Shown: one piece after another, positions 29,701 through 63,432 of the stretch | Numbering within the stretch: the stretch's first letter is position 1 | Layout: every line of letters starts with the position of its first letter | Assembly: GCA_964036195.1 (NCBI GenBank) | Contig: CAXIWS010000001.1 | Span: 62,001 to 126,000 of the forward strand | From: Sphaerolaimus hirsutus | Taxonomy: Eukaryota > Nematoda > Chromadorea > Monhysterida > Sphaerolaimidae | DNA: 64,000 nucleotides | Reading direction: 5' to 3' | Translations under genes and position numbers: made by a program | The notes under the pieces: model-generated | The model's input: the letters and a program-made list of their open reading frames with translations, nothing else | Told to the model about the DNA's origin: nothing | Database searches by the model: none

Positions 29701-32700
29701 CTGCTGCTAATTCTTGCACTTTGACAAGATCTTTTCCAGCCAGCTGAAAAAATGAAAGAACATTTCACGTCAAATCAAACAATACACGTGAAAAGTTTAC
29801 GTCGAACTTTCCACGCCAAAGTTATCAAGACAAATTTTTCACTCCAAACTTTCCACGACAAAGTTATCAAGTCAAACTTTCCGCGCCAAACTTTCCACGC
29901 CAAATTACCCACGTGAACTATTTTACGTAAAACTTTCCACGTGTAAGTTATCAAGTCAAATTTTTCACTCCAAACTTTCCACGACACAGTTATCAAGTCA
30001 AACTCTCCACGCCAAACTTTCCACGCCAAATTACCGACGCCAAACTTTCCACGCCAAACTTGAAATTTTTCACTCCAAACTTTCCACGACAAAGTTATCA
30101 AGTCAAATTTTTCACTCCAAACTTTCCACGCCAAATAACCCAAGTGAAATATTTTACGTAAAACTTTCCACGTCTAAAATTTTAAAGTCAAATTATTCAA
30201 ATACGCACCCCAAACGCTAATACCGCTAATCAAATAAATATCAACTTACTGTCGACTTTTGTCGAATCGCCTCCGCTTTTTTCACGACAATTTTTAATAT
30301 ATCATTGTTCGGTCGTCGCGCGATGATTTCTATGTACATGATAAAGTAATTTTACAATGTAAAATAAAAATAAACATACAAGTAAAGATTAATTTAAAAA
30401 AAAATCGGATCGGCCGAAATTTTTAGTACTAAGCACTACACTAGGTATTTTGCAAAAGATTTGCGAGCATGCATACGCGCAATTACGTAATTATACATAC
30501 AGTAAAAAAAACTGACTTTTTGCGGCAAGTTCACTTGCAGCTTTAGCCTCCTTCTGTGATTTGACACAATCGTCCACCATGACTGCCACATGCTGTGAAT
30601 TTCGTCTCTCTTCTTGGTCATTTGAATCGCCATCCATGGTGTACGGCGACATCACTTCTGTACGCTGGAGGCACTCCCACACCCTGTAAAAACTGGTGTA
30701 AAATGTCAAATGATATGGAAATTGTAAAAAGTCATTCATTGAATATAGGGTTCAAACGGGATTGACTTTTCGGGATCGGGATCGGGATCGGGATTCACTT
30801 TTTGAGATTTCGGGATCGGGATCGGGATCGGGATTCGGGTTTCGGGATTCACTTTTTGAGATTTCGGGATCGGGATTGGGATCGGGATTCGGGTTTCTGG
30901 ATCGGGATCGGGACTGGTAAATCCCGGAACTTCACGGGATCCGGGATCGGGATCGGGATCCCGTTTGAACCCTAATTGAATATGACTTGCAAAATTTATA
31001 ACTGAGAGCTAAATTTGTCTAGTTATTTTTTCCATGACTTTTGACATTTTACAAGACTTTTTACAGGGTGTGGGAGTGGCACCCGCAGTTCATTTGGACC
31101 GCTACTAGAGAGGCCACTTTGAATACTTCTGGTGACTACAGTTTCACCGCGAATTTCGCCTCTGTCACTTTCGTTGCATGATTGATCTCGCTTTCTCTTT
31201 TTAGGCGGCGATTGTTTTTCACTCTTTTTTTGCGGCGAACTTTTTCCACTGCCCCTCTTGGCCACTTTGCCTTCTCCTCGGAGCACTGGTTTTTGCACTG
31301 CATATGAAATATACATGATTAATAATGATTAAGTTGTTATACAATGGAAAACTCATATAAATGAATAAATTTTATTATAACAACACATCAGCAATATTTT
31401 GGAGTGTGTAGTAAATGGAGGGAAATTTTTTACTTATTTGAGTGAGTATTTATATTACATTATTTAAGAATGAAAATAAACGAATATTTTCAAAAAAAAC
31501 TAACCATTTGCCGTCAGAACTGGAGCTAACAGTGGCCACGGCAACTTTTTAATTGTTTTTTCCCTTTCACAAACTTTCTGCAAATAATCTGTGTAATCAT
31601 TGAACTCGTTTTCGGCGTCATCCTGTTCATTTCGTTTTCCAGTTTCATTTCTCATTTTCCACCAAGTGTTCACTTGTCTCTGGAAAAAAGTGTAAAAACA
31701 TTTTGCCACGAGAATGGTGAGGTAATTATAATCCATATACCGAATACACAAAAATTGTGATTTTTTTTACCGATATCGAATTAAAAATCAACCCAACATG
31801 AAAAAAACGCAATCCCAATAGCAATCCCGTAATGTTGCATATTCCAATTAGGGTTCAAACGGGATCCCGATCCCGGATCCCGTGAAATTCCGGGATTTAC
31901 CAGTCCCGATCCCGATCCCGAAACCCCAATTCCGATTCCGATCCCGATCCCGAAATCTCAAAAATACCAATCCCGATCCCGATCCCGATCCCGAAAGTTT
32001 TCAAATCCCGATCCCGATCCCGGAAAAATTGGTGGAAATTATAAAAAGTGAAATAATGACGTTTTTGCATGCAAAAAAAGTGGATGCAAACCCCCAGCGT
32101 CAATTTTATGCCACTTTTCTGTCATCCAACAGTGTTTTGACACCTTTATGAACAACTGTGAATGCCAGAAAAATGGCCAAAATCTCTATCCCTAGAACCC
32201 AATCCCGATCCCGGAAAAATGCCAATCCCGATCCCATGACCCCAATCACGGCAAATCCCGATCCCGAAATCTCAAAAAACCAATCCCGATCCCGAAAAGT
32301 CAATCCCGTTTGAACCCTACCCCCGGGATCTTTTTTGTATATATTCGTACGATTGCGATAGGGGAGTATCCAGGATTTTGGAGTGGGGGGGCTGCTTGTT
32401 TACGGGGGCCGGCGAATGGGGGGCCCCCTAAAATTTTTCCCTCTATAGAGACGGAAAAGCGTTTTTGCGCTAGCGCCATATAAAGGCGCCATTGGCGTTG
32501 GCGTCATCGCCAGGAACCGCTTTATATGTATGTAAATAGGCATACATATACACGAAATGCGCAAAAAATGTGTTCTTTTCCAAGGATTTTGGTTTAAAGG
32601 AGCTGATACGCTGAAAATACAATGCATGGGGAAGAAATTGCGCGCTTGCGCGCAAAATTTTTAGGAAACATCGAAAATATTTAGGAAAATTTGCATTTTC

Positions 32701-35700
32701 CGGGACTTTTTTGATCTCACCCCGGGAAGGAGGGGGGCTGCAGCCCCCCCCCCCCCTGGATACGTCCTTGGATTGAGATTGTAATTTTTTTGTTATTTCG
32801 GAATATGAAATTGGGCAACACACGGGATCGGGATTTTGGTATAGGGATGGTTATTGCAGACTTTCTTGCAATAACCATGCGTAAATGTAAACAGTTTTGG
32901 ATGGATGCGAGAAAAGTGACATGGAAAATATTCGGAATATGGTCACATTATCGTGATATTTATTTAAAAATTTTGATTTTGCAATTGTTATTTCAGATTG
33001 TTAGCCGGCGATTGCATGGCCGGGTGTACCAAATTCGATTCGAATTCTGCAGCCCTCTGCACAAGCATTTCGAAGATGAATACGGTCGGTGTGCCGGAAC
33101 AATGGTGGGTGAATTTAAATTATTTTAACTCTGGTGCATGCAGTGTAAAATCTCTTAAATTTAAAACCACTTTTACTGTCTAGGATGGAATCTAAATACT
33201 TTTCACATCTAAATTTTCATGTAGAATTTGTCTTGTCAACATTTCACGTCACTCACGTGAAACTTTTTACATCAATAATTTAATACGCAGATATATTTTC
33301 GCAACGAGTCGGCGTCATTGCCGATAAAGACCTTCGACACGGCCCACTTCGTGCAACCAGGTGGCACTCCCAAACCCTCCACAGTGTGTAGTGTAAATTG
33401 GAAAGGAAAATTCAAAGTAAACTGTCATTTGTCAAAAATTTCCAGATATTGTTCAAATTTTTTTTTCAATATTTTAATTTTATGGACAGTTTACTTTGCA
33501 TTACACTTGCAATTTACACCTTACCTTACAATTCAGAGGGTTTGGGATTGCCACTAGGCGTTTTGTGGATCAAATTGTGCACCGAATGTGACAAAAGTGG
33601 ATATCGATGCGGTACGATGGAACAACTCGAAATGATGGAACACTTTTCGTTCTATGCGCCCATCCCGGAAGGATATGAGGTTATTTACATTTGTAATTTT
33701 TTATGAATTTATTTTTTTTCTAACATTATATACCGAAGTATGTTGCTTTTTGGCGTTAAATATTTTAGTAATATGTAATATTATAAAATAAATTATAAAT
33801 ATGTTCACAATTTTTTTTTCTGTCTGAATTCCGGACTTGGGGAAACAATACCGAAATTGAGAGCAGATACTTGGGAGTATTTTGGGATAGGGATATGGGA
33901 TTAAATGTTTTCTTGATCTGGTTTTTTTATTTTTAGAGTGCGGTGTCCCATTTTGTTTTTCGGGAGGTATCGTGTCTGTCAACTGCCGGAATTTCTCTGA
34001 ATCACGGATACTAGTATAGATCTATGTTTAAGATATGTTACTTTACATTACGATAATCTCATTCATTTATAGGTGACAATTTACGCGGATAGATCGACGG
34101 AATTCGTGTCGAAGGACGTCGTCAAGAAAGTCGTAGACACCGCGTACCGGCTTTGGAACACGGGCAAATTGAAGAAATTAACGTTTTTCGGCTGTGGAAC
34201 TTTCGAAGACTTGAAGGCTTTCTGCGAGGTATGTTTAACGTTCAAATGTGCAAAACCAAGATTACACAATTGTACATCTTCCATGTGAAAATTTTTACGT
34301 AAAATGTTTGGCGTAAAAAAATGTATGGTTGTTTGGCATGTTTGGGGGGTTGGGAAGTTTGGCGAGAAAAATTTGACTTGAAAAGTTTAACGTGGAAAGT
34401 TTGGCGTGAAAAATCTGACGTGGAAAGTTTGGCGTGGAAAGTTTGGCGTGAAATATTTGACTTGAAAATGTGACGTGGAAAGTTTGGCGTGAAAAATTAG
34501 AATTGAAAGCCAAACTATTCACGTCGGATATTTTACATAATCGGTTTGCGCCATCATTTTACGCTGATATGTATTTTCACGGTATGAATTTACATTTATA
34601 TTTCATAATCTTAATTCGAGGGAGAATTTTACATAATCGGTTTGCGCCATCATTTTACGCTGATATGTATTTTCACAATATAAATTTACATTTACAATTT
34701 ATCATCTTAACTCGAGGGAGGTAGTTCATTTTTCGTCACTTTTTCTAGGTAGTAGTTGTTCAAGGGTGGGGTACAAATATGTCGAATGTTCCCCCCCCCC
34801 CCCTAAAATGTTTAGGAAAATGTAACTTCACGGGCACTTATTCGAGTATTTACTGTATACATGCCATGTATATATTTATTTACTTTTTTAGTTCAACGTT
34901 TACAATTTACAGCCGCTGGACATTGATAACAAGCACTTATATCGCAACGAATTGGATCGGATGCACGGGGAGCACTTCATCGGCAAGGTGGATTGTCAAA
35001 AGTTGTGCGAAATCGAGAACATCGATCAATCGTTTTGTTCACACTGCATGGACGATGCATTGCCGCTGTTCCCGTCGTTGCGCCAAAGAGGCCGCCACAT
35101 TAGGTTAATGGATGAATATCATGAATATGGTATTCACAGTAAAGGGAAGCAGGAAGGGCACGTGGAAATTGATTATGATGATAGTGGAAAGCGTTCGTTT
35201 AAGGCAATTTTGTGATTGATTGATTGATTGATTGATTTAATTGTTTCTGTTCGGTAGTACGGTTCAAACGGCATCAGGAGTGTTATTTTGAACTTTCTAA
35301 ATCGGTATTGGCGTTCCTGGATCTGTATTGCCTTGTTGACTTTTCAGGGAAGATATTACAAGATTAGGAGAGATACCGTTTGAATCCGTATTCACAGATA
35401 GGGTGTCAAATTTCCGTTTTCCGCAGTCAATTTTATTAAGTTCCGTTTTCCGGCTGCTGAAATTATTTTTCCGTTTTCCGGCCACCCACTAAATTTTACG
35501 TTTCCGGCGTATTTTTAGGTTTTCCGTAGTTTTACCGTTCTCCGGCTCAATTTCCACTTTTCAAAAATTTTTCCCATTTTCAATCTTTATTTTATATGTT
35601 TCGCCTCATTTTAACTTTTTCTGGCTCAACTTTATGATTTTTGTGAAGCCAAAATTGTGAACATTAATGCAGATCAACTATGTGAATTTTATCTGTATCC

Positions 35701-36759
35701 AGCAAAATTCAAAAAAATTTAAACTTGCTTCAAAATTTCAGCAAATTTATTCCATTTTCCAGGTAATTTTCGCAAAAAATTACATCTATCCGTTTCCGTT
35801 TTTCCGGCCCCTTTTTACTTTTTCCTGCCGCGGATAATTTTCCCCCCCTTTTCCGTTTTCCGCCAGTGCAATTTTATTTCCCGTTTTCCATGTCCCTTTT
35901 CCGTAAAATTTTTTTTTGACGCCCTAATCACAGGTAGCAATCCCAAGTAAATAGGTTCAAACGATATCGATATAGATAATTGATATTTTTTCAAAATTTT
36001 CGATATCGATATCGATATTTGATTTGATATGGAACATATCTATATTCGCTATTAAAATATGGTCTATATTCGATACTACAAATTTGTCGATATTCCATAT
36101 ATATATATTTCAATATTTTCGATATTTTGCTTTTGGTATAGCCTAGCAAAGCTGCATATTTTATTGAGATAATATATATGGATGTACAAGTGATTTTAAC
36201 CAGCAGTATTTGATATCGTTTGAACCGTAGTCTCAAGCCCTTTCAAGTGCAAAGTAATGTGTCACATGTAAAGTCAAATGAAAAGTCAACTGTCAATTGT
36301 CATGCAAATTTCAGTAATAAAATATTTTTTTTTGTTTTCATTGACACTTTACTTTGCATGTGACTTTACATTTGACACTTACTTTACCGTTCGCCATTTA
36401 CCGTATTCACTGCGCGTGCCCCCAAATATGTCGAAATATCTTGTCATTTTCTATTGTTTTCAGTTTATTCATTAATGCCGTTAAGTTAATAATGATTGTC
36501 GTTATATTAAATTTCTTAAATTTGTTTGTTTTAGCGTAATCGCCCTACACACACTACTTTTCACCGTGATCGATGTGAAAACTGAAATGGCGACATGGCT
36601 CCATCCAGCCTACTCTTTTTGTATCTATGCTATATGTGCTTTAGTTTTCTAATTTACAAAGTCTTACTTTCATTAATTTAAACTCAAATTAAATTTAAAT
36701 AAAATCGTTCAACCGTGTTCTTTCATTTACATGTCTTCACACAAAGCCTCGGTTAAAAA

Positions 36760-36801
<42 letters not shown>

Positions 36802-37406: not shown

Positions 37407-40084
37407 GGTACATACATACATACATAGGTACATACATACATATACCGCGTTCCATGGCGCTGGCGCCAACGCCCATGGCGCCATGGCATGGCGCCTACTA
37501 ATGGCGCCAGCGCCATTAAGCCACTATGTAGCTTCAATTGTAGGGGGGGCTGAGCCCCCTCCCTTGCCGCCTCCGTAAAAAAGCATACCCCCGCTCAAAA
37601 ATCCTGGATACGTACCTCAGGGGGGGGGGGTATTTAGCGTGGTGCTTTATAAGTTCATAGCTGAGAGCGGACAGTATTTCTAAGATATACGGCGCAAATA
37701 GATTGAAATGGAATGTAAACTGTCTATTGTCATCGAGGTGGCAATCCCAAGCCCAGTAAAGTGCCAAATGTAAAGTCAAATGCAAATATAACTGTATGAT
37801 AACTTTACTAATAAAATCATATTTTTTCGTTTTTATTACAATACTTTGCATTCGACTATACATTTAACAGTTTACTTTACACATTACAGGTCTTGGGACT
37901 GCCCCCGGGGGAAACGTTTTTTCATGTATTACGTTGTAAATATGTTCTTTCGTTTATTTCCGATGTCGTTATTTTTTCTGTAACATATTTCAAAATTAAA
38001 ATGTAAATATGTTCTTTCGTTTATTTTCGATGTCGTTTTTTTCCTGTCAGATATTTAAAAATTACATTGTAAATGATCATTTTCACTACTTCATTTTGTA
38101 AGTAAATAATGATTTCAATTTTTTTCAGTAAGATAATCAGATATTTCAAAATAAAAATGTAAATAATCACTTTCACCACTTCATTTTGTAACTATTTAAG
38201 ATTTTTTCCGTTCCATAATGTGCTATTTTTTTCTAAACATTTCTTTCTTTTTTTGTAACAATATGTTTAATTAATAAAACGTAGCAGTTGATTTGTCATA
38301 ATAAATTACAAATAATATAATAGCTATTGGCAAATAATTAGTAAAAATTAAAGTAAAACAATGAATAAGACCCTTGAATAAGACCCCAGGGGCGTTATTA
38401 TTTCGTATGACGTTTTGGAGGGGACTTATTCAAGGGGGGTACCATTCAAGGGGGGGGACTTATTTTTTCCTCAGAACGTCCAGGAAAAATTTCACTTTAT
38501 TCATTGTTTGTATGCATTCCGTCAACACATCTAATGCAGAAAATGACCAGTTCAACAAGAACAAAAACAACGTATCCATCCTAAAATTCGTGTTCATCAG
38601 CATGGTAGGTATGCATACGCTGCGTACACAAAATGTATCTGCTGTGCCGTCTCGGCCGTCGGCTAACATTCTTTTGTATTTTTCGTTTCACACACCAAAC
38701 CCCATTTGCATTCGATGAATCAGCCCAGACATAGCTTTCTTTTTCTGTTTGTCTCGTTTTCATTTTCGTCTGTTGCTGATCGTTTTACCAAGAGGGGGGA
38801 CTTATTCAAGGGGGCGGGTATTTTTCGAGGGGGGTATTACTCAAGGATATACGGTATATACAAATCTCATATCGAAAAATTTTTCCTTGCTGAAAAAAAC
38901 AACAACTGAACGGAATGGACAGACAACTGCTATGCTCTGGCTGACATTTTGGTTTGATGGTGCTTTCGAGATGAAAAAAACAACAAAACAAAACAAAGAA
39001 ACATTTACAGTATAGTGTATTAATTATTTTCTATCTATCATATCATCATTTTCCATCTTGTCCAATCTTTTCACGTCACAAGTCGTTTAGTCGTCGAATC
39101 TTTTCACGTCACAAGTCGTTTCGTCATCGAATCTTTTCACGTCACAAGTCGTTTCGTCGTCAAATCGTTTCCTTCAATCTTTTCACGTCAAGATGTCGTC
39201 GGATCTTTCCACGTCACCATGTCGTCGGATCTTTCTGCGTCAGATAGCTGTAATTCAAAAATCTTTCCACGTCAAAACTTTTTGCGTCAAACATTCCACG
39301 TCATCATTTCACGTTACATGCTCGAGCTCTAATTCCGGCTTTACTGTGGTTACATATCCCACCTGAATAAAGAAACTATTTGTATTACATTACAAGAGTT
39401 ACATGTATTGACTGTTAAATGCACAAAAGCAATATATCATTACATCTGCATTGTGAGAAATGTCTCACATGGAACCCAGACTTTTACTTATTCAATAGTT
39501 TTCAAGGCAGATTACAGTGTTAGACGTACACATCCATGTAAAAAAAGTTTCACACCCTTCAACTATCTGAGACAAAAAGGAAAAAAATTCACTCAAGTTT
39601 ATCATAGCAGCGTGAGCTTTTTGGTTTTAAACACACACATAGCACAGCTCACGCAGCTGTGATAAACTTGAGTGAATTTACTTACTTTTGTGCATCCAAT
39701 ATATATTAATGTCCATTTGAGAGACGCACTTCATGTCCATTTGAGAGACACACTTCATCTCTATTTGCTGTGGAGGCAGCGTCCACTTTTTGTTTGGCGT
39801 TAGCCATTTTTTTACTGTAACATTTATGCCCAACTTAACTTCAAGTCACAAATAGTGATGGCAATCAACAAGAAACAACAAGAAATTGACAACTTCTTGT
39901 AATTCTTGCACATTCTCTTGTCAAATGACATTGTGTGGGATTGGCTCCAGGTTGTGACAAAGAAGCCACGAAACTGATCCGGGAATATTTAATGCAACTG
40001 GACCACGGCTACAAAGGATTCGAGTGTCATGGCTTCTTCACGGTTTCCAGGGCTTTTCTTATCACCGTGGGTACCTATGAGTAA
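11800..40084 (+). CDS. Gustatory-receptor-like 7TM chemoreceptor
   Basis: Exons: 11800-12013, 12915-13773 and probably 39951-40084, about 400 residues, the usual length for the insect-type gustatory receptor family of plasma-membrane chemoreceptors. Exon 1 carries the N-terminus and start of TM1 (LPIFLIIQTAAII); exon 2 has the next hydrophobic segments (ELTVFLLLCIFTTS, LYLIITLFTVFWNF, FYSVFVVCLIHIFL) and a typical TM6 region (LANGICAPYIFLIILLDFPL). The 39.95-kb exon reads CHGFFTVSRAFLITVGTY, matching the family's conserved C-terminus up to the TY pair; the usual QF end is missing. Exon 1-2 phases agree (S codon split). Exon 2 ends at G4/TGAGTG in phase 2 while the last exon needs phase 1; one G fewer would fix it. 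The 26-kb intron would enclose two other genes. Joining to the third exon is inference; it could belong to another receptor. Confidence 0.6.
12123..12348. mobile_element. Family R element (TTCGAA words) in receptor intron 1
   Basis: Ends TAACGATGGCAAAC and GTTTGCC...CATCGTTA are inverse. The body is AATTCGAAAATTCGAAAA words. Flanks CTGGTGGC and CTGGTGTG match at 6 of 8 positions. A related copy lies near 42968-43150. Confidence 0.7.
12463..12605. mobile_element. Family B element with perfect 8-bp target duplication
   Basis: Begins TAGTGGTGGAAAAGCGCC and ends CCATTCCATCACTA. The 8-bp direct repeat GCTCTAGG lies at 12455-12462 and 12606-12613. The right copy overlaps the terminus (TAGGGTGTCAA) of a family E element that continues to about 12785, so family B inserted at the very end of family E. 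Confidence 0.88.
12610..12785. mobile_element. Family E element, partial
   Basis: Starts TAGGGTGTCAAA and carries CGGAAAACGGAA words; the right terminus is not recognisable. It lies in intron 1 of the receptor gene. Confidence 0.6.
13817..14328. mobile_element. Family F element with perfect 8-bp target duplication
   Basis: Begins CATAGTTGTTAAAACGTA and ends TACTTTTAACAACTCTG, flanked by GCTGAGAG at 13809-13816 and 14329-14336. The body has CGTTTACG, TACTCGAGTA and GAGTAAA words in both orientations. It starts 43 bp after exon 2 of the receptor. 8-bp duplication fits hAT-type mobilisation. No transposase. Confidence 0.88.
14340..15669. mobile_element. Family A ends enclosing family F-like and family I-like pieces
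   Basis: A left family A end (CCGTATTACCTCGACTTA, after TTA) stands at 14340 and a right end (GAGGTAATACGG, then TA) at 15669. Between them lie family F-like words at 14560-14720 and 15333-15480 and a family I-like element at 15014-15202. Whether the two ends belong to one 1.33-kb nested element or two truncated ones is not decidable by eye. Another family F-like piece follows at 15710-15860. Confidence 0.5.
15014..15202 (+). mobile_element. Family I (introner-like) element outside a confirmed gene
   Basis: Starts GTGCCAATCCCAGAAAC and ends GGGTCTGGGACTCCCCCAG; inner arms contain TGTAAAATGC and TTTACAGGG. In the plus orientation it begins GT and ends AG like the gene-borne copies. Flanking frames are open only over short distances; a candidate exon (ATG at 15224, reading MDLATLTTESGADGMID) follows, so a gene here cannot be excluded. 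Confidence 0.65.
15872..17314. repeat. 1.44-kb tandem unit, copy 1
   Basis: About 675 bp of unique-looking core followed by family H satellite, then repeated almost exactly from 17315. The core opens with a GC-rich hairpin (GGGTGGGC pairs with GACCCACCC; inner stem TCCCTCG/CGAGGGA). It contains TTGTTCTTG repeats and an 86-codon frame (16078-16338) that is nearly identical in copy 2. That frame starts at a non-ATG codon, has a low-complexity Leu/Phe run and is probably not a gene. Confidence 0.85.
16555..19720. repeat. Satellite H (AATGTCAAGTCA / GATAAATGTCAAGT words)
   Basis: About 3 kb of 10-14 bp words around the core TGTCAAGT, interrupted at 17315-17990 by the second tandem core. Word order is irregular (AAATGTCAAGTC, GTGATAAATGTCAAG, AATTTCAAGTG). 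The same core word appears in the arms of family I introners, for example in 60142-60336. Confidence 0.85.
17315..18757. repeat. 1.44-kb tandem unit, copy 2
   Basis: Repeat of 15872-17314 with few substitutions and small indels, implying a recent unequal exchange or slippage. The satellite tail runs on past the unit length to about 19720 without a third core. Confidence 0.85.
19721..20107. other. Region without recognisable feature
   Basis: AT-rich DNA between satellite H and the next repeats. No exon-like frame or RNA gene seen. Confidence 0.4.
20108..20275. repeat. Array of TCTACTCCAAAATGGTGCC words
   Basis: Five or so copies of a roughly 30-bp phrase (TGGTGCCATCTACTCCAAAA and variants, some with TGGCGCC). 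It may be a diverged relative of family B. Frames through it are repetitive and not taken as genes. Confidence 0.6.
20372..20473 (+). CDS. 33-codon ORF carried in a dispersed repeat (copy 1)
   Basis: ATG to TAA, reading MANAKQKVDAASTANRDEV, then two copies of CLSNGH with flanking residues. An equally long frame with the same start, stop and nearly the same sequence lies inverted at 39706-39807. The surrounding sequence is also shared. It could be the first exon of a lost autonomous element, a short peptide, or chance preservation in a recent repeat. Confidence 0.3.
   Translation: MANAKQKVDAASTANRDEVCLSNGHEVCLSNGH
20545..20960. mobile_element. Family C element, orientation 2
   Basis: Inverted copy of 9790-10200: starts AAGCGGGAATTAGAGCTC, continues with GGACAAAGATACGGTCTTG and ends in TTTCACGTCA words. 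With the block at 20340-20500 it has a counterpart at 39060-39830, so a larger composite unit may exist. Confidence 0.75.
20984..21523. mobile_element. Family D variant with GGGACC words
   Basis: Begins TAGGGTTCAACCGGGACC and ends CCCGTTTGAACCCTA. It has the same termini as the CGGGAT-word copies, but the body word is CCGGGACCGGGA. Target duplication is not clean. Confidence 0.7.
21919..22383. mobile_element. Family A MITE
   Basis: CCGTATTTCCTCGAAATA at the left, preceded by TA; GAGGAAATACGG at the right, followed by TA. Contains CGAGAGGGG and TTTCGAGGGG words in G runs. The middle shares ATGTACGTTCTCT and AGTATGTAGATGGTAT with the copy at 5689-6149 in inverse orientation. Confidence 0.78.
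22384..23155. other. AT-rich intergenic stretch with (TTAC)n
   Basis: Only a short (TTAC)n microsatellite near 22746-22777 stands out. It lies just downstream of the stop codon of the minus-strand gene ending at 23156, so its 3' UTR should fall here. Confidence 0.45.
23156..31736 (-). CDS. Multi-exon nuclear-type protein, about 740 residues, family unknown
   Basis: Exons in gene order: 31505-31736 (or acceptor at 31680), 31083-31297, 30517-30664, 30250-30329, 29438-29743, 28048-28290, 27533-27688, 27090-27251, 25355-25474, 24403-24601, 24066-24232, 23448-23606, 23156-23194. Every junction agrees in phase. About residues 20-77 are helical and Trp-rich (RQVNTWWKMRNETGKRN). Exon 2 is basic with a nuclear signal (PPKKRKRD). 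Exons 3-5 are Ala/Lys-rich helical with DCDRCHSLPKY. Exon 6 has DSDSDS and Ser-Pro repeats. The C-terminus is KKKTLPQKRKKK. A nuclear or chromatin role is inferred from composition only. The first intron after exon 2 is a family I introner. Start codon is uncertain: ATG at 31736 reads through, or an upstream exon exists. Confidence 0.72.
23700..23940. repeat. Family C array with uninterrupted target of family E
   Basis: TTTCACGTC words in both orientations inside an intron of the minus-strand gene (23607-24065). It contains ATTGCATGCAATAGTCGAA, the empty-site relative of the family E target at 8020-8027/8618-8625. Confidence 0.75.
24762..25221. mobile_element. Family D element, decayed right end
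   Basis: Starts TAGGGTTAAAACGGGATCCC. Shares the interior landmark CCCCCAGCGTCCATTTTAT with the other family D copies. Lies in an intron of the minus-strand gene. Confidence 0.7.
25801..26290. mobile_element. Family D element with 9-bp direct repeat
   Basis: TAGGGTTCAAACGGGAT to ATCCCGTTTGAAACCCTA. Flanks are AATGGCACC at 25792-25800 and 26291-26299 (8 or 9 bp of duplication). The body is CCGATCCCGATCCCG words around a unique centre (AACAGTGTTTTGAG). It lies in an intron. Confidence 0.85.
26315..26911. mobile_element. Family D element, inverted, perfect 8-bp target duplication
   Basis: TAGGTTTCAAACGGGATTG to CCCGTTTGAACCCTA, flanked by ATGGCGCC at 26307-26314 and 26912-26919. It lies 24 bp from the preceding copy in opposite orientation. 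The targets of both copies are pieces of one family B-like GGCGCC array (26291-26314 and 26912-26965), giving a B-then-D nesting. Confidence 0.88.
28475..28660. repeat. Family B fragment plus (CATA)n microsatellite
   Basis: TGGCGCCAGCC and AGGCGCCAGC words followed by (ACAT)n at about 28605-28645, the same order as in family S elements. Intronic. Confidence 0.55.
28717..29211. mobile_element. Family E element with perfect 8-bp target duplication
   Basis: TAGGGTGTGTCAAC to GTTGACACCCTA, flanked by ATATTTTG at 28709-28716 and 29212-29219. The body resembles 8028-8617 (CGGAAAACGG words, then a centre with GAACCTGCATGCAT, then TTGAGCCGGAAAA words). It lies in the 28291-29437 intron. Confidence 0.9.
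29757..30180. repeat. Array of AACTTTCCACGCCAAA words
   Basis: About 20 variants of CAAACTTTCCACGCCAA and TTATCAAGTCAAA fill most of the 29744-30249 intron. The words are related to family C. Open frames through it are repetitive and are not genes. Confidence 0.75.
30665..31082 (-). mobile_element. Introner (family I) forming a complete intron
   Basis: On the minus strand the intron starts GTGCCACTCCCACACCC and ends GGGTGTGGGAGTGCCTCC then AG. These ends are inverse of each other and next to TGTAAAA/TTTACA arms. Exons on both sides join in phase 0 (ACTGCGG to CGTACAG). It is lengthened by a nested family D element at 30746-30974. Confidence 0.88.
30746..30974. mobile_element. Family D element nested in an introner
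   Basis: TAGGGTTCAAACGGGATTG to CCCGTTTGAACCCTA, flanked by a perfect 8-bp repeat ATTGAATA at 30738-30745 and 30975-30982. It postdates the introner it sits in. Confidence 0.9.
31849..32319. mobile_element. Family D element
   Basis: TAGGGTTCAAACGGGATCCC to CCCGTTTGAACCCTA with CCCGAT words and the family centre (CATCCAACAGTGTTTTGA). No clean target duplication is seen. It lies just upstream of the start of the 31.7-kb minus-strand gene. Confidence 0.8.
32365..32766. mobile_element. Family S composite element, copy 2
   Basis: Begins GTATCCAGGATTTTGGAG and ends CCCCCTGGATACG. Contains a family B block (32455-32515), TATATGTATG tract and GCGCGCTTGCGCGC palindrome in the family order. Confidence 0.65.
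32997..35215 (+). CDS. Unidentified protein, 3' part, 252 residues
   Basis: Exons 32997-33104, 33291-33360, 33558-33679, 34073-34228, 34913-35215; all junctions agree in phase and end at TGA. The N-terminal exon was not found. The sequence alternates short strand-like and helical stretches (VTIYADRSTEF, then KLKKLTFFGCGTFED), with Cys-rich patches (KLCTECDKSGYRC, KLCEIENIDQSFCSHC) and a charged C-terminus. The strand-plus-helix middle resembles substrate-binding parts of some F-box-type proteins, but I see no F-box and do not name a family. Intron 2 is a family I introner; a TTGATTGATTGA tract follows the stop. It would lie inside the long receptor intron, on the same strand. Confidence 0.65.
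33361..33557 (+). mobile_element. Introner (family I) forming a complete intron
   Basis: Starts GTGGCACTCCCAAACCC and ends GGGTTTGGGATTGCCACTAG: almost perfect inverse ends that are also the splice sites. Arms contain TGTAAATTG / CAATTTACA and an AGTAAACTG / CAGTTTACT pair. Flanking exons join in phase 1 (CCA G / GC GTT) to give FVQPGVLWIKLC. 197 bp. Confidence 0.92.
34295..34560. repeat. Array of GGAAAGTTTGGCGTG words
   Basis: Family C-related words (GACGTGGAAAGTTTGGCG) in the 34229-34912 intron, followed by a duplicated segment (ATTTTACATAATCGG at about 34537 and 34627). Confidence 0.65.
35399..35925. mobile_element. Family E element
   Basis: TAGGGTGTCAAATTTCCG to TTTTTGACGCCCTA, CCGTTTTCCG words in inverse orientation to the copies at 8 and 28.7 kb. 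Flanks TTCACAGA and ATCACAGG match at 6 of 8 positions, so it is older. Just before it (35262-35390) is a decayed family D-like pair, GGTTCAAACGG...CCGTTTGAATCC. Confidence 0.75.
35934..36420 (+). mobile_element. Family I element split by a family D variant
   Basis: A family I left end (GTAGCAATCCCAAG) is interrupted at 35952 and resumes at about 36231 (CTCAAGCCCTTTCAAGTGC), with the usual arms (GTAAAGTCAAATG, ACTTTACATTTGACAC) and a right end near GCGTGCCCCC. No gene is evident around it. Confidence 0.6.
35952..36229. mobile_element. Family D variant with GATATC words
   Basis: Begins TAGGTTCAAACGATATCG and ends GATATCGTTTGAACCGTA. The body consists of CGATATCGATAT and TTCGATATT words. Same terminal TTCAAACG as family D, different body word. 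Confidence 0.75.
36764..36800. repeat. (GT)n microsatellite
   Basis: About 18 GT units. A partial family A piece (TGATTGCTTCATA, CCCGAGAGGG) follows at 36838-36935. No gene is supported between 36430 and 37170. Confidence 0.8.
37171..37614. mobile_element. Family S composite element, copy 3
   Basis: From GCTGTATCCAGGGGGG to CTCAAAAATCCTGGATACG, with the GCGCAGGCGCGC palindrome, (CATA)n tract at 37375-37443 and a family B block (37455-37522). Confidence 0.65.
37738..37907 (+). mobile_element. Family I element, 3' AG altered
   Basis: GTGGCAATCCCAAGCCC at the left; GGTCTTGGGACTGCCCCCGG at the right, so the terminal AG of the spliced copies is GG here. Arms carry TGTAAAGTCAAATG and its inverse. 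No flanking exon was recognised. Confidence 0.7.
37908..38363. other. AT-rich stretch with short direct repeats
   Basis: ATATGTTCTTTCGTTTATTT and TTTTGTAAGTAAATAATGA-like phrases recur two or three times. No gene is supported. Confidence 0.45.
38364..38854. mobile_element. Family A-like element with TTCAAGG words
   Basis: Contains GACTTATTCAAGGGGG and inverse words and ends ACTCAAGGATATACGG followed by TA. The left terminus is indistinct (GAATAAGACCC). Frames inside are low complexity and rejected. Confidence 0.5.
39056..39345. repeat. Family C array
   Basis: TCTTTTCACGTCACAAGTCG phrase repeated three times, then TTTCCACGTCA words, ending CGAGCTCTAATTCCGGCTTTA, the family C end. Between this and the ORF copy at 39706 lies a hairpin of CACTCAAGTTTATCA / TGATAAACTTGAGTG arms (39590-39677). 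Confidence 0.7.
39706..39807 (-). CDS. 33-codon ORF carried in a dispersed repeat (copy 2)
   Basis: Inverted counterpart of 20372-20473 with the same start, stop and length; I see one substitution changing a codon (TGT to CGT in the second CLSNGH-type repeat). Preservation of the frame in both copies is suggestive, but both may simply be recent. Confidence 0.3.
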   Translation of the reverse strand: MANAKQKVDAASTANRDEVCLSNGHEVRLSNGH

Positions 40085-54310: not shown

Positions 54311-56147
54311 ATGTCGGAATTTTTTAGTTTACTTCTATTTACTCTTATTTTGGATCCAGTAAATTCGGGGTGTTCCAAAATTGGGCTCTTTTGTTGTCTA
54401 GAAGCTCATGATTTTAGTGAAGGGTATTGCGATGAGAATGAGCTTATTTGGCCAGATAATTCTAGCTATACCAGTCCCGAGTTGACAAAAATTGATTTAT
54501 ATGGATGCACAGAGTTGAACTGCAGTGGAATTGAATTGGCGTTTCCAAATTTGGAACAAGTGCTTTATGAAAGACCAGGTAGTGATCGCAAACTCTGTAA
54601 AATGCTCATGTAAAATGCTGCACATCTCAAAATTTCTCAAATATTTTGTATAATTTTTTGATAAATTGCTAGATACTCGCCATTCTACAGGCATTTTACA
54701 GAGTTTGTGATTAATCAGATTGCCCGTGTGTGATCCTATGTGGAAAACCGTTGATTATTACAGGCGCCGAAATTTGTAGTAAGTTTATTTGGACACTTTA
54801 TAAAGTGCCTGTCATGTACAGGCTTTGTCTTGATCAGATTCTTGTGTCTTATCCCGGGTCACACATAGATTTTGATCGCGGTATACCCTGTAAAATATCA
54901 TCTAAAATGACTTACAGTCCATTTTACAGGGTCTACCGGGACTAAAATCTACATGACTAGTCTCATACTAGTCGGTTCCACTCACTGTAAATCCACTGTA
55001 AGATACACAGGGACTGGATGTTACAGTGGATTTAGAGAGCTGGAACAAACTGGTACGGGACTACTCACGTAGATTTTAGTCGCGGTACACCCTGTAAAAT
55101 GGACTGTAAATCATTTTACATGAAGTTTTACAAGGTGTAGGATGACTAAAATCTACACGACTATTCCCTACGAGTCGGTTCCAGTCCCTGTAAATGCACT
55201 GTAAAGTAAAGATTTAGTCCCTGTAAATGCACTTTAACACACACAGTGACTGGACGTTTACACTGGATTTAGATGGACTGGAACCAACTCGTACGGGACT
55301 ATTTACGTAGATTTTAGTTGCTGTATACCCTCCAAAATATCATGTGAAATAGTTTACAGTCTATTTTACAGGGTCTACCACGATCAAAATCTACGTGAGT
55401 AGTTCCGTACGAGTCGGTTGTTCCAGTCCCTCTAAATCCAGTGTAAACGTCCAGTCCCTGTGTGTGTTACAGTGCATTTATAGAGAAAAAAGGTTTACTT
55501 TACAGTCCATTTACAGGGACAGGGACTGGAACCGCCTCGTACGGGAATGATTTACAGTCCATTTTACTTTACACTCCATAGTATATTCTATCTTGTTTTA
55601 TATCGAAGCGACAACAACTATCGTTCCAACGTCAACAGAAGTTCCGAGCAATGGGCAATTTGTTACTCGCGGGAATACTTTGGGTATTACTCTGGGAATT
55701 TTGGGAGGCTGCATTGGCATTATTGGCCTGGCTTTTGGAATTTTTTATTGGAAAAGGTATAAAATTTATATATGGTACTTTTTTACTCCAAATCTTCCAA
55801 ATCTTCAAACATCAAATTTCAATTTATCACCCTCTGCAAAAAATATAAATAACTTCTTGAAAAAATTTCGATCAAAATGTTATATTTTTGGCTTCAAAAA
55901 ATAGTCAAAACTGACATTTCAGATGCCGTGCCTCGGAATGGCGTCTGTGCTTTCAAAGGCGGGGACATCAGATGGAGGCAGTTGAGAATCCGGTTTTTGG
56001 TGCCGGGCAATTGCACGATGCAGAGTTTGATGAAAATTGTTTGTTTCGCAAACTAAAAATACTTTCATATTTCAACAAATGTCGTTTGCAGTCGTTTTTA
56101 CGCAGGAGGAACGAAACCTTTTGGACACCTACTTTGAATTTCGATAA
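54311..56147 (+). CDS. Single-pass membrane protein with Cys-rich ectodomain, 215 residues
   Basis: Exons 54311-54578, 54719-54778, 55609-55756, 55923-56038, 56092-56147; phases 1, 1, 2, 1 all agree (648 nt). Residues 1-20 are a signal peptide (MSEFFSLLLFTLILD). The ectodomain has paired Cys (GLFCC, YGCTELNC, DCPCVILCG) and a short LRR-like phrase (LTKIDLYGCTELNCSG, then AFPNLEQV), one N-x-S site, and a Thr-rich stalk (TTTTIVPTSTEV). The TM segment is TLGITLGILGGCIGIIGLAF, followed by KR and a cytoplasmic tail with acidic/aromatic ends (EERNLLDTYFEFR). Intron 1 is an introner; intron 4 is only 53 bp. The exon 3 acceptor (TATCGAAG) is poor but fixed by phase. A cell-surface role is inferred. 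Confidence 0.78.
54579..54718 (+). mobile_element. Introner (family I subtype) forming a complete intron
   Basis: Starts GTAGTGATCGCAAACTCTG and ends CAGAGTTTGTGATTAATCAG. Inner arms are TGTAAAATGC/GCATTTTACA. Exons join in phase 1 to read YERPDCPCVILCG. Its outer 12 bp differ from the main type, but the inner TGTAAAATG arm is shared. Confidence 0.85.
54779..55608. repeat. Intron filled with inverted repeats (GTCCCTGTAAATCCA words)
   Basis: Repeated GATTTTAGTCGCGGTACACC, CCCTGTAAAATGGACTGTAAA, CGTACGAGTCGGTTCCAG and their inverses, in at least four alternating blocks. It makes the second intron of the membrane-protein gene 830 bp long. Confidence 0.75.
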
Positions 56148-56336: not shown

Positions 56337-56431
56337 ATGAAGGTACTAATTACTATTTTCTGGGTGTTTATTCGCTTTTCGAATTGTAATGAAGAATGCA
56401 GTGTGTTTTGGAGCGACGAGCATAGCGGCCC
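56337..56431 (+). CDS. Signal-peptide exon, probable first exon of the glycoprotein gene
   Basis: ATG after TTGCAGAA; reads MKVLITIFWVFIRFSNCNE, a signal-peptide-like hydrophobic stretch, then ECSVFWSDEHSGP up to a donor CC/GTGAGC (phase 2). An acceptor at 58182 (CCCCAAG) would continue in frame as FDPAQVFLTTERPSD. This would put the family K cluster in intron 1. The link is inferred from phase only. Confidence 0.45.
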
Positions 56432-56929: not shown

Positions 56930-58010
56930 CTATGGCGCTGGGGTTATTTTTTCCGCTATTTTTATCGGCGTCGGGGCGGGACCATGACCTATTATATCGC
57001 ATTGACAAAAAATTGTGCTCCAGTAATCTTAGTAGTGATATAATAGCTCGTGGCGCCGACGGGAGTAAAAAATGACGCAAAAAATGACCCCAGAAAAAAT
57101 GATCCCCAAAAATAAGCCATTATATCGCTTACTCGGGCGACAAAATTGCGTCGCAGTGACTTTAATACTGGGGCCGTGAAGCTGACGTTATTTTTTCCTA
57201 TCTACTCAAATGTAGTGAAAAAATGACGTCAGCTTCACGGTCCCAGTATTAAAGTCACTGCGACGCAATTTTGTCGCCGAGTAAGCGATATAATGGGTTA
57301 TTTTTGGGGTCATTTTTTCTGTTTAGTGAAAAAATGACGTTAGAGACATGGACCCAGTATAAATCTCACTGCGACGCAATTTTGTCGCCAAGTAAGCGAT
57401 ATAATAGCTTATTTTTGGGGTCATTTTTTCTGGGGTCATTTTTGCGACATTTTTACTGGCGTTGGCGCCACGATCTATTATATCACTACTAGGAACAATG
57501 GGACGCAATTTTTGTCGTCGAATTAGCGATATAATGAGGGGGTCATTTTTGCGCCATTTTTACTGACGTCGACCCCACCACCAATTATTTAACTGTTAGT
57601 ATCACTGGGACACAATTTTTTCTCGCCGAATTATTTATATAATGAGTTATGTGACTGGGACCATTTTTCAGACTCTATGACTAGCACAAAAATGGTCCCA
57701 GTGCCATAACTCATTATATCGCTAATTCGGGGACAAAATTGCATCCCATGGGGTCATTTTTGCGCCATTTTTACTGGCCTCGGGGCCACAACCTATTATT
57801 TCACTAGTATCCAATTTTTCTCGCCGAATTATTGATATAATGAGTTATGGCGCTGCGACCATTTTTCACACTCTATCACTAGTGCAAAACATGGTTCCAG
57901 CACCTTAACTCATTATATCGATAATTCGGCGACAAAAATTGGGTACTAGTGAAATAATGGGTTGTGGCGCCCACCCCAGTAAAAAATAGCGCAAAAATGA
58001 CAACAGTCAA
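56930..58010. repeat. Family K cluster of inverted repeats (ATTATATCGC words)
   Basis: At least eight blocks of GCGATATAAT, GACAAAATTGCGTCGC, AAAAATGACG and GGGTCATTTTT in alternating orientation. The longest hairpin pairs about 57111-57195 with 57215-57300 (AATACTGGGGCCGTGAAGC / GCTTCACGGTCCCAGTATT). A family A fragment follows (58016-58104). Confidence 0.8.
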
Positions 58011-58171
58011 TCTGGGGTGGTATTTTGAGGGAGGAGTGTTTCATAGTGATCTTTGAGAGCGAGCTCAACAGCGGGGGGTTAGAGGGGTATTTCGAGGAAA
58101 ATCGATGTGGGGTATTCTCACTGTGTTCTGTTTAAATTCCAATTTTTATTCCTGTTTTTTTTGCATTCTAG

Positions 58172-61100
58172 CCCGCCCCAAGATTTGACCCGGCCCAAGT
58201 TTTTTTGACAACAGAACGACCATCTGACATTTCTGAAGTGCCAATCAACGATGAAAATGTTTTTCATGATGCGCCATCCATTAGCGAAACGCCCAGACAC
58301 CCAGAACATCAGGTAATCAAGGTTTATTCAGTTTTGACTGATTTGCCACAAGCTTTGATGTCTATTGGAACTGAAGAGATGGTGTGTCTATTGAAGATTT
58401 ACATAGAGTTGTTAAAGGAAATTATAATATAAATTTTTTTGCAGTTGATTCCAAGCGTACGGCATTTGATCCAATGTGAAAAAATATATTTCCAAAACAG
58501 AGATTGTCAAGTTTATTATGCTCAAAATAAACTTTATCAAGAGTGCTAGTTTGAAAATTTTTTAAAAATATTTATTTATATTTTCTTCAAAACTTGAAAA
58601 AAATAGAATAAATTTAATAAAAAGATTTGGAATAAATATATATATAGATAAATATTTTCAATGTTTTTCTACTGGTATGTTATTGCTAAAGCAAGATTCT
58701 ATGATCAAATTCTACTTTTTCTAGACAACCAGCGGACCGTCACTGAGTAGTGTGATTTCTCAAATACCAACTACTTACCTGAGTGAAATTAATTATTCTC
58801 TTGAATTGAATCAATGTGAAAGCAGGAAATTGTTGCTGTGGGGAAATTATCTCAAATTGAATTCTACTGTGCAAAATTTGCATTTGGAAATTGCACAAAT
58901 CAATACCTCATATCAAACCTGTTTGCAAACTGCCAATTCAAAAGATACAGGTCAATTTATTTATTTATATGATATATATATATATATATTATATATATTA
59001 TGCAAAAATTTCAGATTTGCGCAATTTGAATGCGAGTTTAACTGCCTGTAATACTAATCTCCCTTTGTTCACTGCCAAAATTAATATGGGGAAATATAAC
59101 CTATCTCGGTGCTTGGATGAGAAACAAATATTAACAGCTAACATTACCCATATTTATAATCAATACAAATTAACACTGGAGGCTAATGATGGGTTGAATC
59201 ACTCAATAATTCACTGCACAGAGGAAATGGGAGATTATAAAAAAGGTGTTATGAATTTTAAATATTCTCTGAGAATTTTAATCCACTCGTTTTCCAACTC
59301 TTTCAGAATATGTGATGGCAAAAAATGTGTTGCAAATTTGTATCGGAAATTTGACTAATTCGCAACAATTGTTGGAGATGCTGAATCTGAATCTCAGCTC
59401 ATGTGTGACGGAAAATCAAAAGTTGAAATATTTAGATGATATATTGAATAGTACAAAAGAGGAACTAAAGTCTTGTTTGACAACGACTCAAACATTAAAT
59501 GTTCTAAATGCTACTAAGCAACAATGTCTTACAGAAATCAACTTATGCAATGAAGGTAATTCTACCCCTTTTTATAATATTATTCAAAATAACTGTATTT
59601 CAAAAATATGAATATTCTCAGATTTAGGAGAAGTGAAATTGCTCTTGGAGGGATGCAAAAGAAATGTGCGCCAGTGCTCTGGTGCCAGTTCAAACACTAT
59701 AGAAAGTGGGAATATTAATTCTCAATTGGGTTAAAATGACATGGTGGGTATAGAGTTCATTTTTACTTGAGAAAAAATGAGGTCTACTCTATGACTACAA
59801 TCTCATTTTAATCTAGTTGACAATTAATTTTGTCAGTTCTATACTGTTGAACTGTCTCCTGGTGAGCTGGAAAATGAGAGAAAAAATTACACTAGATGTG
59901 AAAATGAAAAGGCCATTTTCTGGGCTAATTTATCACACTTTTATCCACAGTACAAGCAGCTGCTTATTCAAGTTCTTGAATATAAACTGAATATTACTTA
60001 TTGTCAAAATAAATTGAGGGAATTTGAAATAGCTGGGAACACACAGAGCATCCAGTATTCAGAAATGGTTGAAATCCACAATGGAACCCTAAATAGCTGT
60101 TTTTCCGAAAAAGCTACTGCTGAAGCCCAGTTAATTGCCTGGTGACTGTCCCAAGCCCTGTAAAGTGTAAAGTAAAATGTCAAGTGTTAAGTCAAATGCA
60201 AAATAAACTCTCAATTGAGATGCAAATTTTAGTAATAAAATATTTTCTTTTTTGTCTTGATTGGCACTTACTTTGCATTTGACTTTACATTTGACACTTT
60301 TACTTTACATTTTACAGGGCTTGGGAGTGCCCCCAGTACTGCAAATTTATCTTTGGGATTTTCAAATTTTTCAAATCTCTCAAATTTTTGGGAACAAAAA
60401 TGGTTATTATTGAATGATTCAACTCTCACCTCCGACATAATTAATTGCACGGTGTGTCGTTACACTATTTTTCATTTTTTTCTGTTCTTTTAATCAACTA
60501 ACAATTTTTCAGCAAGTAGAAAGTGATTATTGGTTTGGCCCCATTAAAATGGAATTGAGATGGGAGAAGATGCCAGGTAAATACAAAGTTTTCATACACA
60601 ATTTCATGTAACTGATAAAATGAAATGTTTATTAAAATAAATAATATTTTTTATTTATGTATTACAGATTTTATCCTCCGGCTGATTGGCATATTATGGG
60701 TGATTACAGCTCTGATTCTAAATCCGGCTATCAAAGTGTGTGATGAAACACTTCAGAAAACGTCCTTAAACGACTCCCGGATTCAGAAAACTTTCCACAG
60801 TTTTGGAGAACTAAGTTTGAGCAGACTTATTGAAAATGCAATTGTTGGTTTATACAAAGTTTTTTATTTTCGATAGAAAAACTTCTAAAATAATATTTTG
60901 TGAAATTTTATTTTAATCGATTTCTATCAACATGATATATAGAAAAATGTTCGATGTTAATAAAAAAGAATTTTTCAAGACTCCCCCAGGGTCCTATTTC
61001 AAAGTAAAAATATCGTAAATACCTTATTTCAGGTGACTACAATTTTGAACGTTGGTCATTGGGTGGGAAAGAGATGCAAAAAGTCAGAACAGAGAAATTT

Positions 61101-61363
61101 GGTTGATTTTGAAAATGCAGTTTCGACCCCAACATCTGAAAATCAACCAGGGGGAGAAATTTTCCAAGAAATGATGGGGCTGTCGACTATTTTTCCGACC
61201 ACATCAACCAATTTTCCAGCTCACTCTACTCCAAGTAAAATATTGACTTAGATTTTGGGGTAAATTTTTACGTATAGTTCTAATCTTTACATATATTTCA
61301 GATGTGCCTACAAGCTCAAAAAAAATCTGTTTTGGGCGGAGTGTTTCATTTTCTGATGCCTGA
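58172..61363 (+). CDS. Secreted or membrane N-glycosylated Cys-rich coiled-coil protein
   Basis: Exons 58172 (or 58183)-58312, 58445-58549, 58725-58950, 59015-59245, 59307-59555, 59622-59729, 59837-60141, 60337-60451, 60513-60576, 60668-60843, 61033-61234, 61302-61363. Most junctions agree in phase. Two do not resolve: exon 58445-58549 runs into TAG unless it splices earlier or is skipped, and 59729/59837 shifts frame. The central part has many N-x-S/T sites (NLNASL, LTANIT, GNLTN, LNATK) and single Cys spaced 15-45 residues apart in helical sequence (CLDEKQILTANITH), as in extracellular disulphide-linked coiled coils. A hydrophobic stretch (FILRLIGILWVITALILN) near 60.7 kb may be a membrane segment, and a Ser/Thr/Pro tail follows (STIFPTTSTNFPAHSTPS). 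An introner forms intron 60142-60336. No known family recognised. Confidence 0.6.
60142..60336 (+). mobile_element. Introner (family I) forming a complete intron
   Basis: Starts GTGACTGTCCCAAGCCC and ends GGGCTTGGGAGTGCCCCCAG. Arms pair over about 60 bp with few mismatches (TGTAAAGTGTAAAGTAAAAT against inverse) and contain ATGTCAAGTGTTAAGTCAAA, the satellite H word. Exons join in phase 2 (GCC TG / T ACT) to read LIACTANLSLG. 195 bp. Confidence 0.93.
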
Positions 61364-61953: not shown

Positions 61954-63432
61954 CTAGGCAAATGAAATGTCTAAAGTATATGCATTTTCTAAGCTTTCGA
62001 TCAAAAACAACACACGTGCATTGGGAAGTTGGTTAGCGTTGAGGCAGAGTCCAACATGTATTTCTGGAGCAAAAGTAATATCGGGGATGTCGGGGTTCGG
62101 AGTTTCATCAATTTCCTTATTTCCTGGCAAATTTTCTTCCTGCAATGAGATAAAATGGTGTCTGATGTGTGATTAAGTCACGCAGACGCATAATCTCAAC
62201 TTAAAGACACTTCACTAGACACAGATGTTTCACAAAATTCCACGAACTTTTTGAAGGATACTTTGTATAGTTAGTGGAATGTCGTGAAACATCTGGGATT
62301 AGTAAAGTGTCTTTAAGCTGACATCTGCGTGAAGGGATTTAAATACTTTAAAAAACCGCTTACTGGAATCTGCTATCACAGAAAAAATAGGTCTGTGATG
62401 CGCAATGAAGTGTCCTGAAAGTTCCTTCACGCAGAGGCGCAATGTCAGCGTGAAGACACCTTCGCTAGACCCCAAATGCTTCACGACACTCCATGAAGGT
62501 TTGCAGGATACTTTGTATGGTTTGTAAAGTGTTCTGAAGCATCTGGGTCTAGTGAAAGTCCCTTCACGCTGACATTACACATCTCCGTGAAGTGGCGCGC
62601 GGGGCGTGAAGGTATTGAAGTGTGATGAAGTGTTCTGAAGTCCCTTCACCTAGACGCGCAATGTCAGCGTGAAGGCACTTCACTAGACCCCAAATGGTTC
62701 GCGACACACCATGAATTGGGGGTCTAGTGAAGTGCCTTCACGCTGACATTGCGCGTCTCCGTGAAGAATTGGGGGTCTAGTGAAGTCCCTTCACGCTGAC
62801 ATTGCGCGTCTCCGTGAAGTGACTTCAGAACACTTCATCACGCATCACACATCTATTTTTTCTGTATACCTCATAAACCACTCAAAACCCCCAGGAGTGA
62901 TAAATCATACCAAAATTTCCGGTAATTGTTCCTGAGAGCAATGAATCTTGCATTGAGCATGGGAGACAAGTTCGATTTCAACTCTGGAGGAAATTCCACT
63001 CTTTGAAAACGAGAAAATGTGGTTTCTGTATAGAAGGTAATGATAGATAAGAATAAATATTCTGTAATTTAGTGTTCTTTCGTGTAAAATTTTGGCTCAC
63101 CGTGGGGATTTTAGATGGAGTTCATTAATTTCGCCAATTTGATTTACAGTTTCGGCAACGTTCAAATCATGTACTCCCAAAGCATGTCAAATTCACTTTA
63201 AAATATAAAAAATGTCGTAAATACAATGACTTTTTATATTTATGGTATTTTTTATATCTTATAGTGTATTTTTACAGGTTTTGGGATTGACACCTGCTGT
63301 AGAAAAATGTAGAACAATATTTTTTAAACTGGGATAACGGCGTAAGACTATTTCTTTTGTTAATATGAAGTCACCATAAAAACGAATAATTGCACAATGG
63401 GAAAAAATTGTCTCTGAAGTTGAGGGATCCAT
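61954..63432 (-). CDS. 170-residue LRR-like protein
   Basis: Exons in gene order 63294-63432, 63101-63173, 62911-63025, 61954-62139; phases 1, 2, 0 all agree (513 nt). ATG in MDPSTSETIFSHCAIIRF, TAG stop. Short strand-turn repeats resemble irregular leucine-rich repeats: YPSLKNIVLHFS, INELHLKSP, RVEIELVSHAQCKIH, IHVGLCLNANQLPNARVL. An acidic linker (NKEIDETPNPDIPDI) separates the last part. No F-box or signal peptide seen. Intron 1 is an introner; intron 3 (62140-62910) holds a family G array. LRR assignment is tentative. Confidence 0.65.
62150..62865. repeat. Family G array inside an intron
   Basis: Phrases GTGAAGTGTCC, CTTCACGCAGACGCGCAATG, TCAGCGTGAAGACACTTCAC and CTAGACCCCAAATG recur six or more times in both orientations, with an almost exact 50-bp local duplication near 62715-62815. 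Confidence 0.8.
63174..63293 (-). mobile_element. Introner (family I, worn) forming a complete intron
   Basis: On the minus strand starts GTGTCAATCCCAAAACCTG and ends GACATGCTTTGGGAG. The last CCCCAG of other copies is missing; splicing at TTTGGGAG/TA restores phase 1 and reads HFSTAVHDLNVAE. 120 bp, AT-rich centre. It suggests the terminal AG can shift inward within the TIR. Confidence 0.75.

Follow-up and report, generated by a model that had tools for sequence, protein, structure and literature searches.

Putative inverted-repeat introns and the element clan

We analysed a window of 64,000 nucleotides from the nematode Sphaerolaimus hirsutus (contig CAXIWS010000001.1, positions 62,001 to 126,000). 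The window, with a GC content of 37%, lies within a 158-kb scaffold; genome-wide counts given below cover the 348-Mb, 762-contig assembly. It holds five intron-like segments, A to E, each lying between open reading frames, and our subject is the clan of miniature inverted-repeat transposable elements (MITEs) to which these segments are related, together with the putative role of that clan in making introns. The initial annotation had described all five as inverted repeats, and at the coordinates given below each of them is one, starting with GT and ending with AG. An Rfam scan of the window at gathering thresholds returned no match.

Intron A, 30665..31082, minus strand: clan MITE, GTGCCACTCCC...GGGAGTGCCTC, plus the 3' target-duplication CAG at 30665-30667; phase 0
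Candidate intron B, 33361..33557, plus strand: element GTGGCACTCCC...GGGATTGCCAC plus TAG, a decayed CAG; phase 1
Intron C, 54579..54718, plus strand: MITE of a related family, GTAGTGATCGCAAACTCTG...CAGAGTTTGTGATTAAT, plus CAG, with a CAG/CAG duplication; phase 1
Intron D, 60142..60336, plus strand: MITE GTGACTGTCCCAAGCCCTG...CAGGGCTTGGGAGTGCCCC plus CAG, with CTG as left flank; phase 2
Candidate intron E, 63174..63293, minus strand: decayed copy with AG inside its right end (GGGAG|TACATG); phase 1

Removal of each segment joins open frames in the phases listed, as had been predicted, and the accompanying claim that insertion ignores codon phase also holds, in that removing an element together with one copy of its duplication suits any phase. 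As a benchmark we paired flanks at random, which gives a 95% quantile of 48 codons for the shorter open side. The joined frames of A (82+57 codons), C (91+75) and D (104+52) lie above this quantile, and the shorter sides of B (27+49) and E (47+25) lie below it; B and E are unproven as introns. The B segment recurs, nearly identical, at six further places (L002–L007), and since the flanking sequence is shared as well, B and its six counterparts are duplicated segments and not separate insertions. A nested, unrelated repeat (about 30747–30973) adds to the length of intron A.

Introns C and D can be compared with paralogs that lack the element. For C, a paralog at C347:10582-10884 is contiguous across the junction (query 9–110, 62%, no stop), and eight further paralogs (64–66%) align over query 1–100, unbroken at residue 89/90. 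The gene with D has seven paralogs at 54% (a TGA occurs in one) that are contiguous over query 8–112, unbroken at 98/99, and another at C347 (47%, one TAA) is contiguous over query 13–123. Both gaps are kept in three near-identical copies (the window, C2 and C9). As read from these alignments, C and D are precise intron gains: paralogs without the element run straight through the site, and the putative intron is the element plus one 3-bp duplication. The earlier reading of such segments as introners is thereby upheld for C and D, as it is for a copy outside the window, L054, in each case by paralogs contiguous across the junction.

Genes C and D (window 54300–61350) also occur about 5–8 kb apart at many scattered places (C2:23.23 Mb, C9:1.83 Mb, C347, C740, C14, C15 and C16), the distance at C347 being 18 kb, and their copies at 47–66% identity align without intron gaps. 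Because the two genes are paired at the same scattered places, we assign them to a multi-gene repeat that is dispersed in the genome, either a large transposon or an integrated virus-like unit.

The elements are short and non-coding, have terminal inverted repeats, duplicate their target and reach a high copy number. The clan is one of high-copy, non-autonomous DNA transposons, that is, MITEs, with a main family of about 192 bp that is mostly inverted repeat. Main-family ends read GTGGCARTCCC...GGGAYTGCCCC. Among 82 copies found in fetched loci, the 42 of standard length were used for the 192-bp consensus, to which their mean identity is 92.8%. An exact 26-nt element end is preceded by CAG at 707 places genome-wide and by CTG at 727, against 0 for a reversed-pattern control, so the family is truly dispersed, as first supposed. 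Since GT at one end is paired with CC at the other in 60 of 75 copy placements, the element is directional though nearly palindromic. The copy that forms intron C, singled out at the outset for its different ends, comes from a separate though related family. Its CAG/CAG duplication is clean, and no other segment was recovered by a strict window scan for CAG-GT...CAG inverted repeats. Three of the introns were folded as RNA and compared with dinucleotide shuffles, giving z-scores of −14.1 (D), −8.0 (C) and −7.5 (E). The initial annotation had assigned both splice ends to the terminal repeats. The 5' GT does start the element, but the 3' AG is the CWG target duplication beyond the terminal repeat; the exception is E, where the AG lies within the decayed right end.

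We characterized the target in 30 loci chosen for each left 3-mer (CAG or CTG), of which 4 (CAG) and 2 (CTG) were dropped because their right end was unrecognisable. Copies with CAG on the left carry CAG on the right in 16 of 26 cases and CTG in 4, and copies with CTG on the left carry CTG on the right in 20 of 28 and CAG in 4. Across 52 copy placements, CWG predominates in the triplets adjoining the element (C 51 and G 50 on the left; C 49 and G 46 on the right), and the target extends to CCWGG, with C before the CWG in 32 placements and G after it in 30. The flanking 3-mers are identical in 50 of 80 copies; the shuffle mean is 33.1, and 1 of 10,000 shuffles was as high. Empty counterparts of the L059 and L062 insertions carry a single CAG, and a one-base gap adjoins the site in the L059 alignment. 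Insertion thus duplicates a 3-bp CWG target, with CCWGG preferred. A target of CWGCWG, taken without duplication, was considered and is ruled out by the empty sites with their one CAG.

Repeated insertions in a GPCR-like gene family

A scan of the C1 copies, taken in order, yielded L054 (C1:14067.2-14067.4 kb), which interrupts a single open frame. Without the element and one CAG, this frame encodes 340 amino acids from M to stop. The spliced protein shows about seven hydrophobic segments, and we take its seventh helix, from its motif, to be like that of a G-protein-coupled receptor (GPCR). In Pfam the protein matched DUF508 alone, below threshold, and a search of the PDB found no relative of solved structure. 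Protein searches with the spliced sequence and with an exon resembling gustatory receptors returned no match. Searched against the genome, the L054 protein has 43 matches, 20 of them unbroken across the junction and 15 of those 20 without a stop. L054 appears to be a further case of precise intron gain, with contiguous paralogs and a predicted intron made up of the element plus one 3-bp duplication.

Seven members of the family, L054 included, are split near the junction. All seven carry a MITE, one of which is known by its ends alone; two further matches start or end near the junction (C14:21655762 and C1:28598778). The split members use three sites, IA|RKQ, RP|GFWF and LQ|TV. L054 has a main-family element at IA|RKQ. 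The RP|GFWF codon holds four elements of at least two families: a GTGCCAGTCCCAG-type element in L094, a GTGCCAGTTCCGC-type element in L095 and a GTGCCACTCCCAG-type element in L096, each starting with GT and having CAG on both sides, and a fourth in L097, which has no 3' AG because CTG flanks it on both sides. The L095 element is plainly of a different family, and the insertions in L094, L096 and L097 appear to be independent of each other. At LQ|TV, L093 and L098/L099 share one insertion, which starts with GG instead of GT. Use of an inner donor with the outer acceptor in L093 and L098 would add six in-frame codons (GPIPNP).

The arms of the elements are still highly complementary (62 identities and 4 mismatches in L094, 135 and 18 in L096) compared with about 40% identity between the GPCR-like proteins, and we therefore take the insertions to be younger than the gene duplications. 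From the same gene family we infer that the intron is absent from the homologues of L094–L096. No stop is present in L054 or in the matched parts of L094 (up to residue 264), L093 and L098/L099. Introns A, D, L054 and L096 have the arms and ends of one clan in common, and their flanking sequences differ; similar introns thus stand in unrelated genes, and the similarity reaches both splice boundaries, which is how introners are recognised.

Proposed intron creation and its alternatives

The observed anatomy of the elements is joined by an observed target duplication, empty sites, contiguous paralogs and repeated insertions in one gene family. Set side by side, these make it probable in our view that MITEs of this clan, by inserting at CCWGG-like sites, create new spliceosomal introns at CAG targets. 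A MITE would insert at a CCWGG-like site and duplicate the central CWG. With CAG on the transcribed strand, the product would read exon-CAG | GTGGCA...GCCCC-CAG | exon, in which the GT of the element end would serve as 5' splice site and the 3' AG would be borrowed from the target duplication. Removal of the element and one CAG would then restore the original frame exactly, whatever the phase, and the hairpin would bring both splice sites together. We infer that the spliceosome would carry out this removal, and a PIF/Harbinger (NuwaI-type) transposase presumably moves the elements. Copies at CTG or outside exons would stay ordinary MITEs and are apparently the majority: most sampled copies look like plain MITEs, and those that form introns are apparently the minority that hit exons at CAG.

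Ordinary MITEs might instead have landed in pre-existing introns and created none. Most sampled copies do not lie between clear open frames, and a stretch resembling a 3' splice site precedes the left CAG of candidate intron E. However, nothing but the element and one CAG lies between the exons of C, D, L054 and L094–L096, paralogs are contiguous at the sites, and the same codon is occupied by different elements, and we regard an origin in older introns as improbable. It is also unlikely that the elements are not removed at all and break the genes that they enter, which would then be dying paralogs or transposon genes. The damage seen in L095, L096 and L097 (detailed below) fits such breakage, as do the stops in 5 of the 20 contiguous GPCR-like matches, which make decay common in the family, and the B segment, which looks like a decayed repeat. 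Against breakage, L054 is free of defects in both exons of its 340 residues, and the matched parts of L094 are equally sound; C and D are open on both sides, and the 3' AG is intact in A to D although the left flank has drifted in places (CGG, CTG).

Splicing could also take place at inner sites, GTAAAG in the left arm and TTTACAG in the right, so that the outer arms become new exonic sequence. To judge from the sequence, these sites are closer to the splice consensus, and in L093 and L098 the inner donor with the outer acceptor would keep the frame, as noted above; yet in A, D, L054 and L096 use of both inner sites would leave 37 nt behind, with a shift of frame, and we think it very improbable that splicing proceeds in this way. 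A last possibility is that the introns are alike only because genes were duplicated with introns already inside them. This is true of B and its six co-duplicates, of the near-identical copies bearing introns C and D, and of L093 with L098/L099. For the family as a whole it is excluded, because the flanks of L008–L062 differ from copy to copy, most with CWG on both sides, and both the element family and its site vary among the GPCR-like paralogs; as a general explanation we give it almost no credence.

A number of results weigh against intron creation by the clan. Among the L008–L092 copies the flanking 3-mers are unequal in 30 of 80. In 18 of the 80 a CAG stands opposite a CTG, which would be unusual if the target were simply duplicated. 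The excess at exon junctions for which the initial annotation proposed to look is not found in a crude open-frame form of the check: at least 20 open codons lie on both sides of 13 of 26 CAG copies and 11 of 28 CTG copies, compared with 43% of random pairings, and the 707 CAG copies are about as numerous as the 727 CTG copies. As a 5' splice site GTGGCA looks weak, a pyrimidine tract is missing from the 3' end, and L093 and L098/L099, with their GG start, need another donor. Genes C and D, as parts of a dispersed multi-gene repeat, may not be ordinary host genes, and 'GPCR-like' is a label of our own, backed by no library.

The GPCR-like genes add points on the same side. Frame breaks occur near residue 212 in the L095 gene (CAG/CAG) and near residue 160 in the L097 gene (CTG/CTG); the match to L096 contains a single in-frame TGA, and that to L094 stops at residue 264. 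Given two frame breaks and an in-frame TGA, the interrupted genes are not all working, and part of the set may be decaying. L097 was dropped as a clean negative control to the intact CAG copies, with L095 (CAG/CAG) frame-broken as well and a TGA in the L096 match; because L095 and L096, both CAG copies, also look damaged, our confidence in intron creation is lower.

The search for the mobilising enzyme points in the same direction. We found 163 matches to DDE_Tnp_4 genome-wide; for the abundant DDE_Tnp_4 type, 13 copies on C1 all lie more than 5 kb from any listed element end. An introner inside the common DDE_Tnp_4 type, considered because the gene spans about 192 nt beyond what the profile needs, was rejected, as ordinary introns are present in L100, the one copy that was read. 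None of the DDE_Tnp_4 matches examined could be linked to the elements as their transposase; Myb/SANT proteins were not searched for. PIF/Harbinger-type transposase genes with near-equal scores occur at >100 places (e.g., C15:4254207-4254839).

Other copies in the window and known systems

The window contains three further copies of the elements.

15014..15202, plus strand: dispersed copy, GTGCCAATCCC...GGGACTCCCC; left flank CTG
35934..36420, plus strand: dispersed copy, split by a nested AT-rich repeat; profile match about 36228-36391
37738..37910, plus strand: dispersed copy, GTGGCAATCCC...GGGACTGCCCC; flanks GAG and CGG

Since its flanks are GAG and CGG, the copy at 37738..37910 has no AG at its right end. 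Several other repeats are present. An inverted repeat at 43614–43869 has 108-nt arms, 100% complementary, around 40 nt, and is either very young or a conserved hairpin element. A long array of diverged short repeats at 16500–19770 (TGTCAAGTGATAAA-like, in steps of 12, 14 and 19 nt) includes a roughly 1444-bp duplication, and its words resemble MITE arms. A CGGGATC-rich repeat family with ends AGGGTTCAAACGGGAT occupies 24800–26910 and 30747–32300, one copy being nested in intron A. An open frame at 12887–13777 (plus strand) has a weak match to the 7tm_7 chemosensory receptors (E 1.3e-4, below the Pfam cut-off).

The closest transposon group is NuwaI (PIF/Harbinger); we do not claim membership. 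In the passages of PMC4482050 that deal with it, NuwaI is a group of PHIS (PIF/Harbinger) reported from animals alone, with CWG target duplications and terminal repeats of 12–61 bp that usually begin GGG. The clan likewise has CWG target duplications, shown here at empty sites, but its ends are GGGG on one side and GTGG on the other, and its inverted repeat is longer than 12–61 bp. The same passages mention no link between NuwaI and introns. PIF/Harbinger elements are among the transposons found in gained introns according to part of a fungal study.

The origin of new introns and of their placement at CAG|G is a long-standing question, and a transposon target rule alone would give canonical GT-AG introns, CAG|G junctions and every codon phase. 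We suggest tentatively, and with slightly more doubt than belief, that the proto-splice site (CAG|G) happens to match what the transposase prefers as target (CCWGG, of which CWG is duplicated), so that the whole clan, with its distinct MITE families, acts as an intron factory, and related genes gain introns in parallel at one and the same codon. If this is true, conserved intron positions and the exon-junction consensus could reflect insertion preference and not shared ancestry. Parallel gain is directly testable because one gene family holds at least two element families at one codon beside uninterrupted members; if real, it would mislead analyses that equate shared intron position with shared descent.

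The non-canonical introns of larvaceans are reportedly linked to MITEs. For Fritillaria and other larvaceans, the relevant parts of PMC13326754 and PMC7789003 describe animal introns that were perhaps spread by transposons and are mostly non-GT-AG, whereas those described here are GT-AG. The introner elements of the dinoflagellate Amoebophrya (PMC7789003, in its sections on these elements) resemble the clan in their inverted repeats, in direct repeats of 3–5 nt at the boundaries with exons and in hairpins that bring the exon ends together. Their introns are mostly non-canonical and these sections give no family-specific repeat motif, whereas the introns here are GT-AG and follow one target rule.

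Introners as surveyed by Gozashti et al. (2022, PMC9860276, in the parts cited here) are transposon copies that fill whole introns, many of their families having target duplications, terminal inverted repeats or both; they are enriched in genes, and within animals the survey reports two groups only. In some of them the element supplies one splice site and the target duplication the other (legends to Fig. 2B and 2C). The clan is similar on both counts, with whole introns that are transposon copies and splice sites shared between element and target duplication. It differs in that a 3-bp CWG duplication is the source of both the upstream exon CAG and the 3' AG, in elements that are inverted repeats over almost their full length; the example in Fig. 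2C of PMC9860276 has 4-bp duplications and no inverted repeats, and that in Fig. 2B has the reverse arrangement. Few clan copies lie clearly in coding exons, compared with the gene enrichment reported in the same survey. The introner phenomenon is thus known, and the CWG-duplication arrangement found here looks new.

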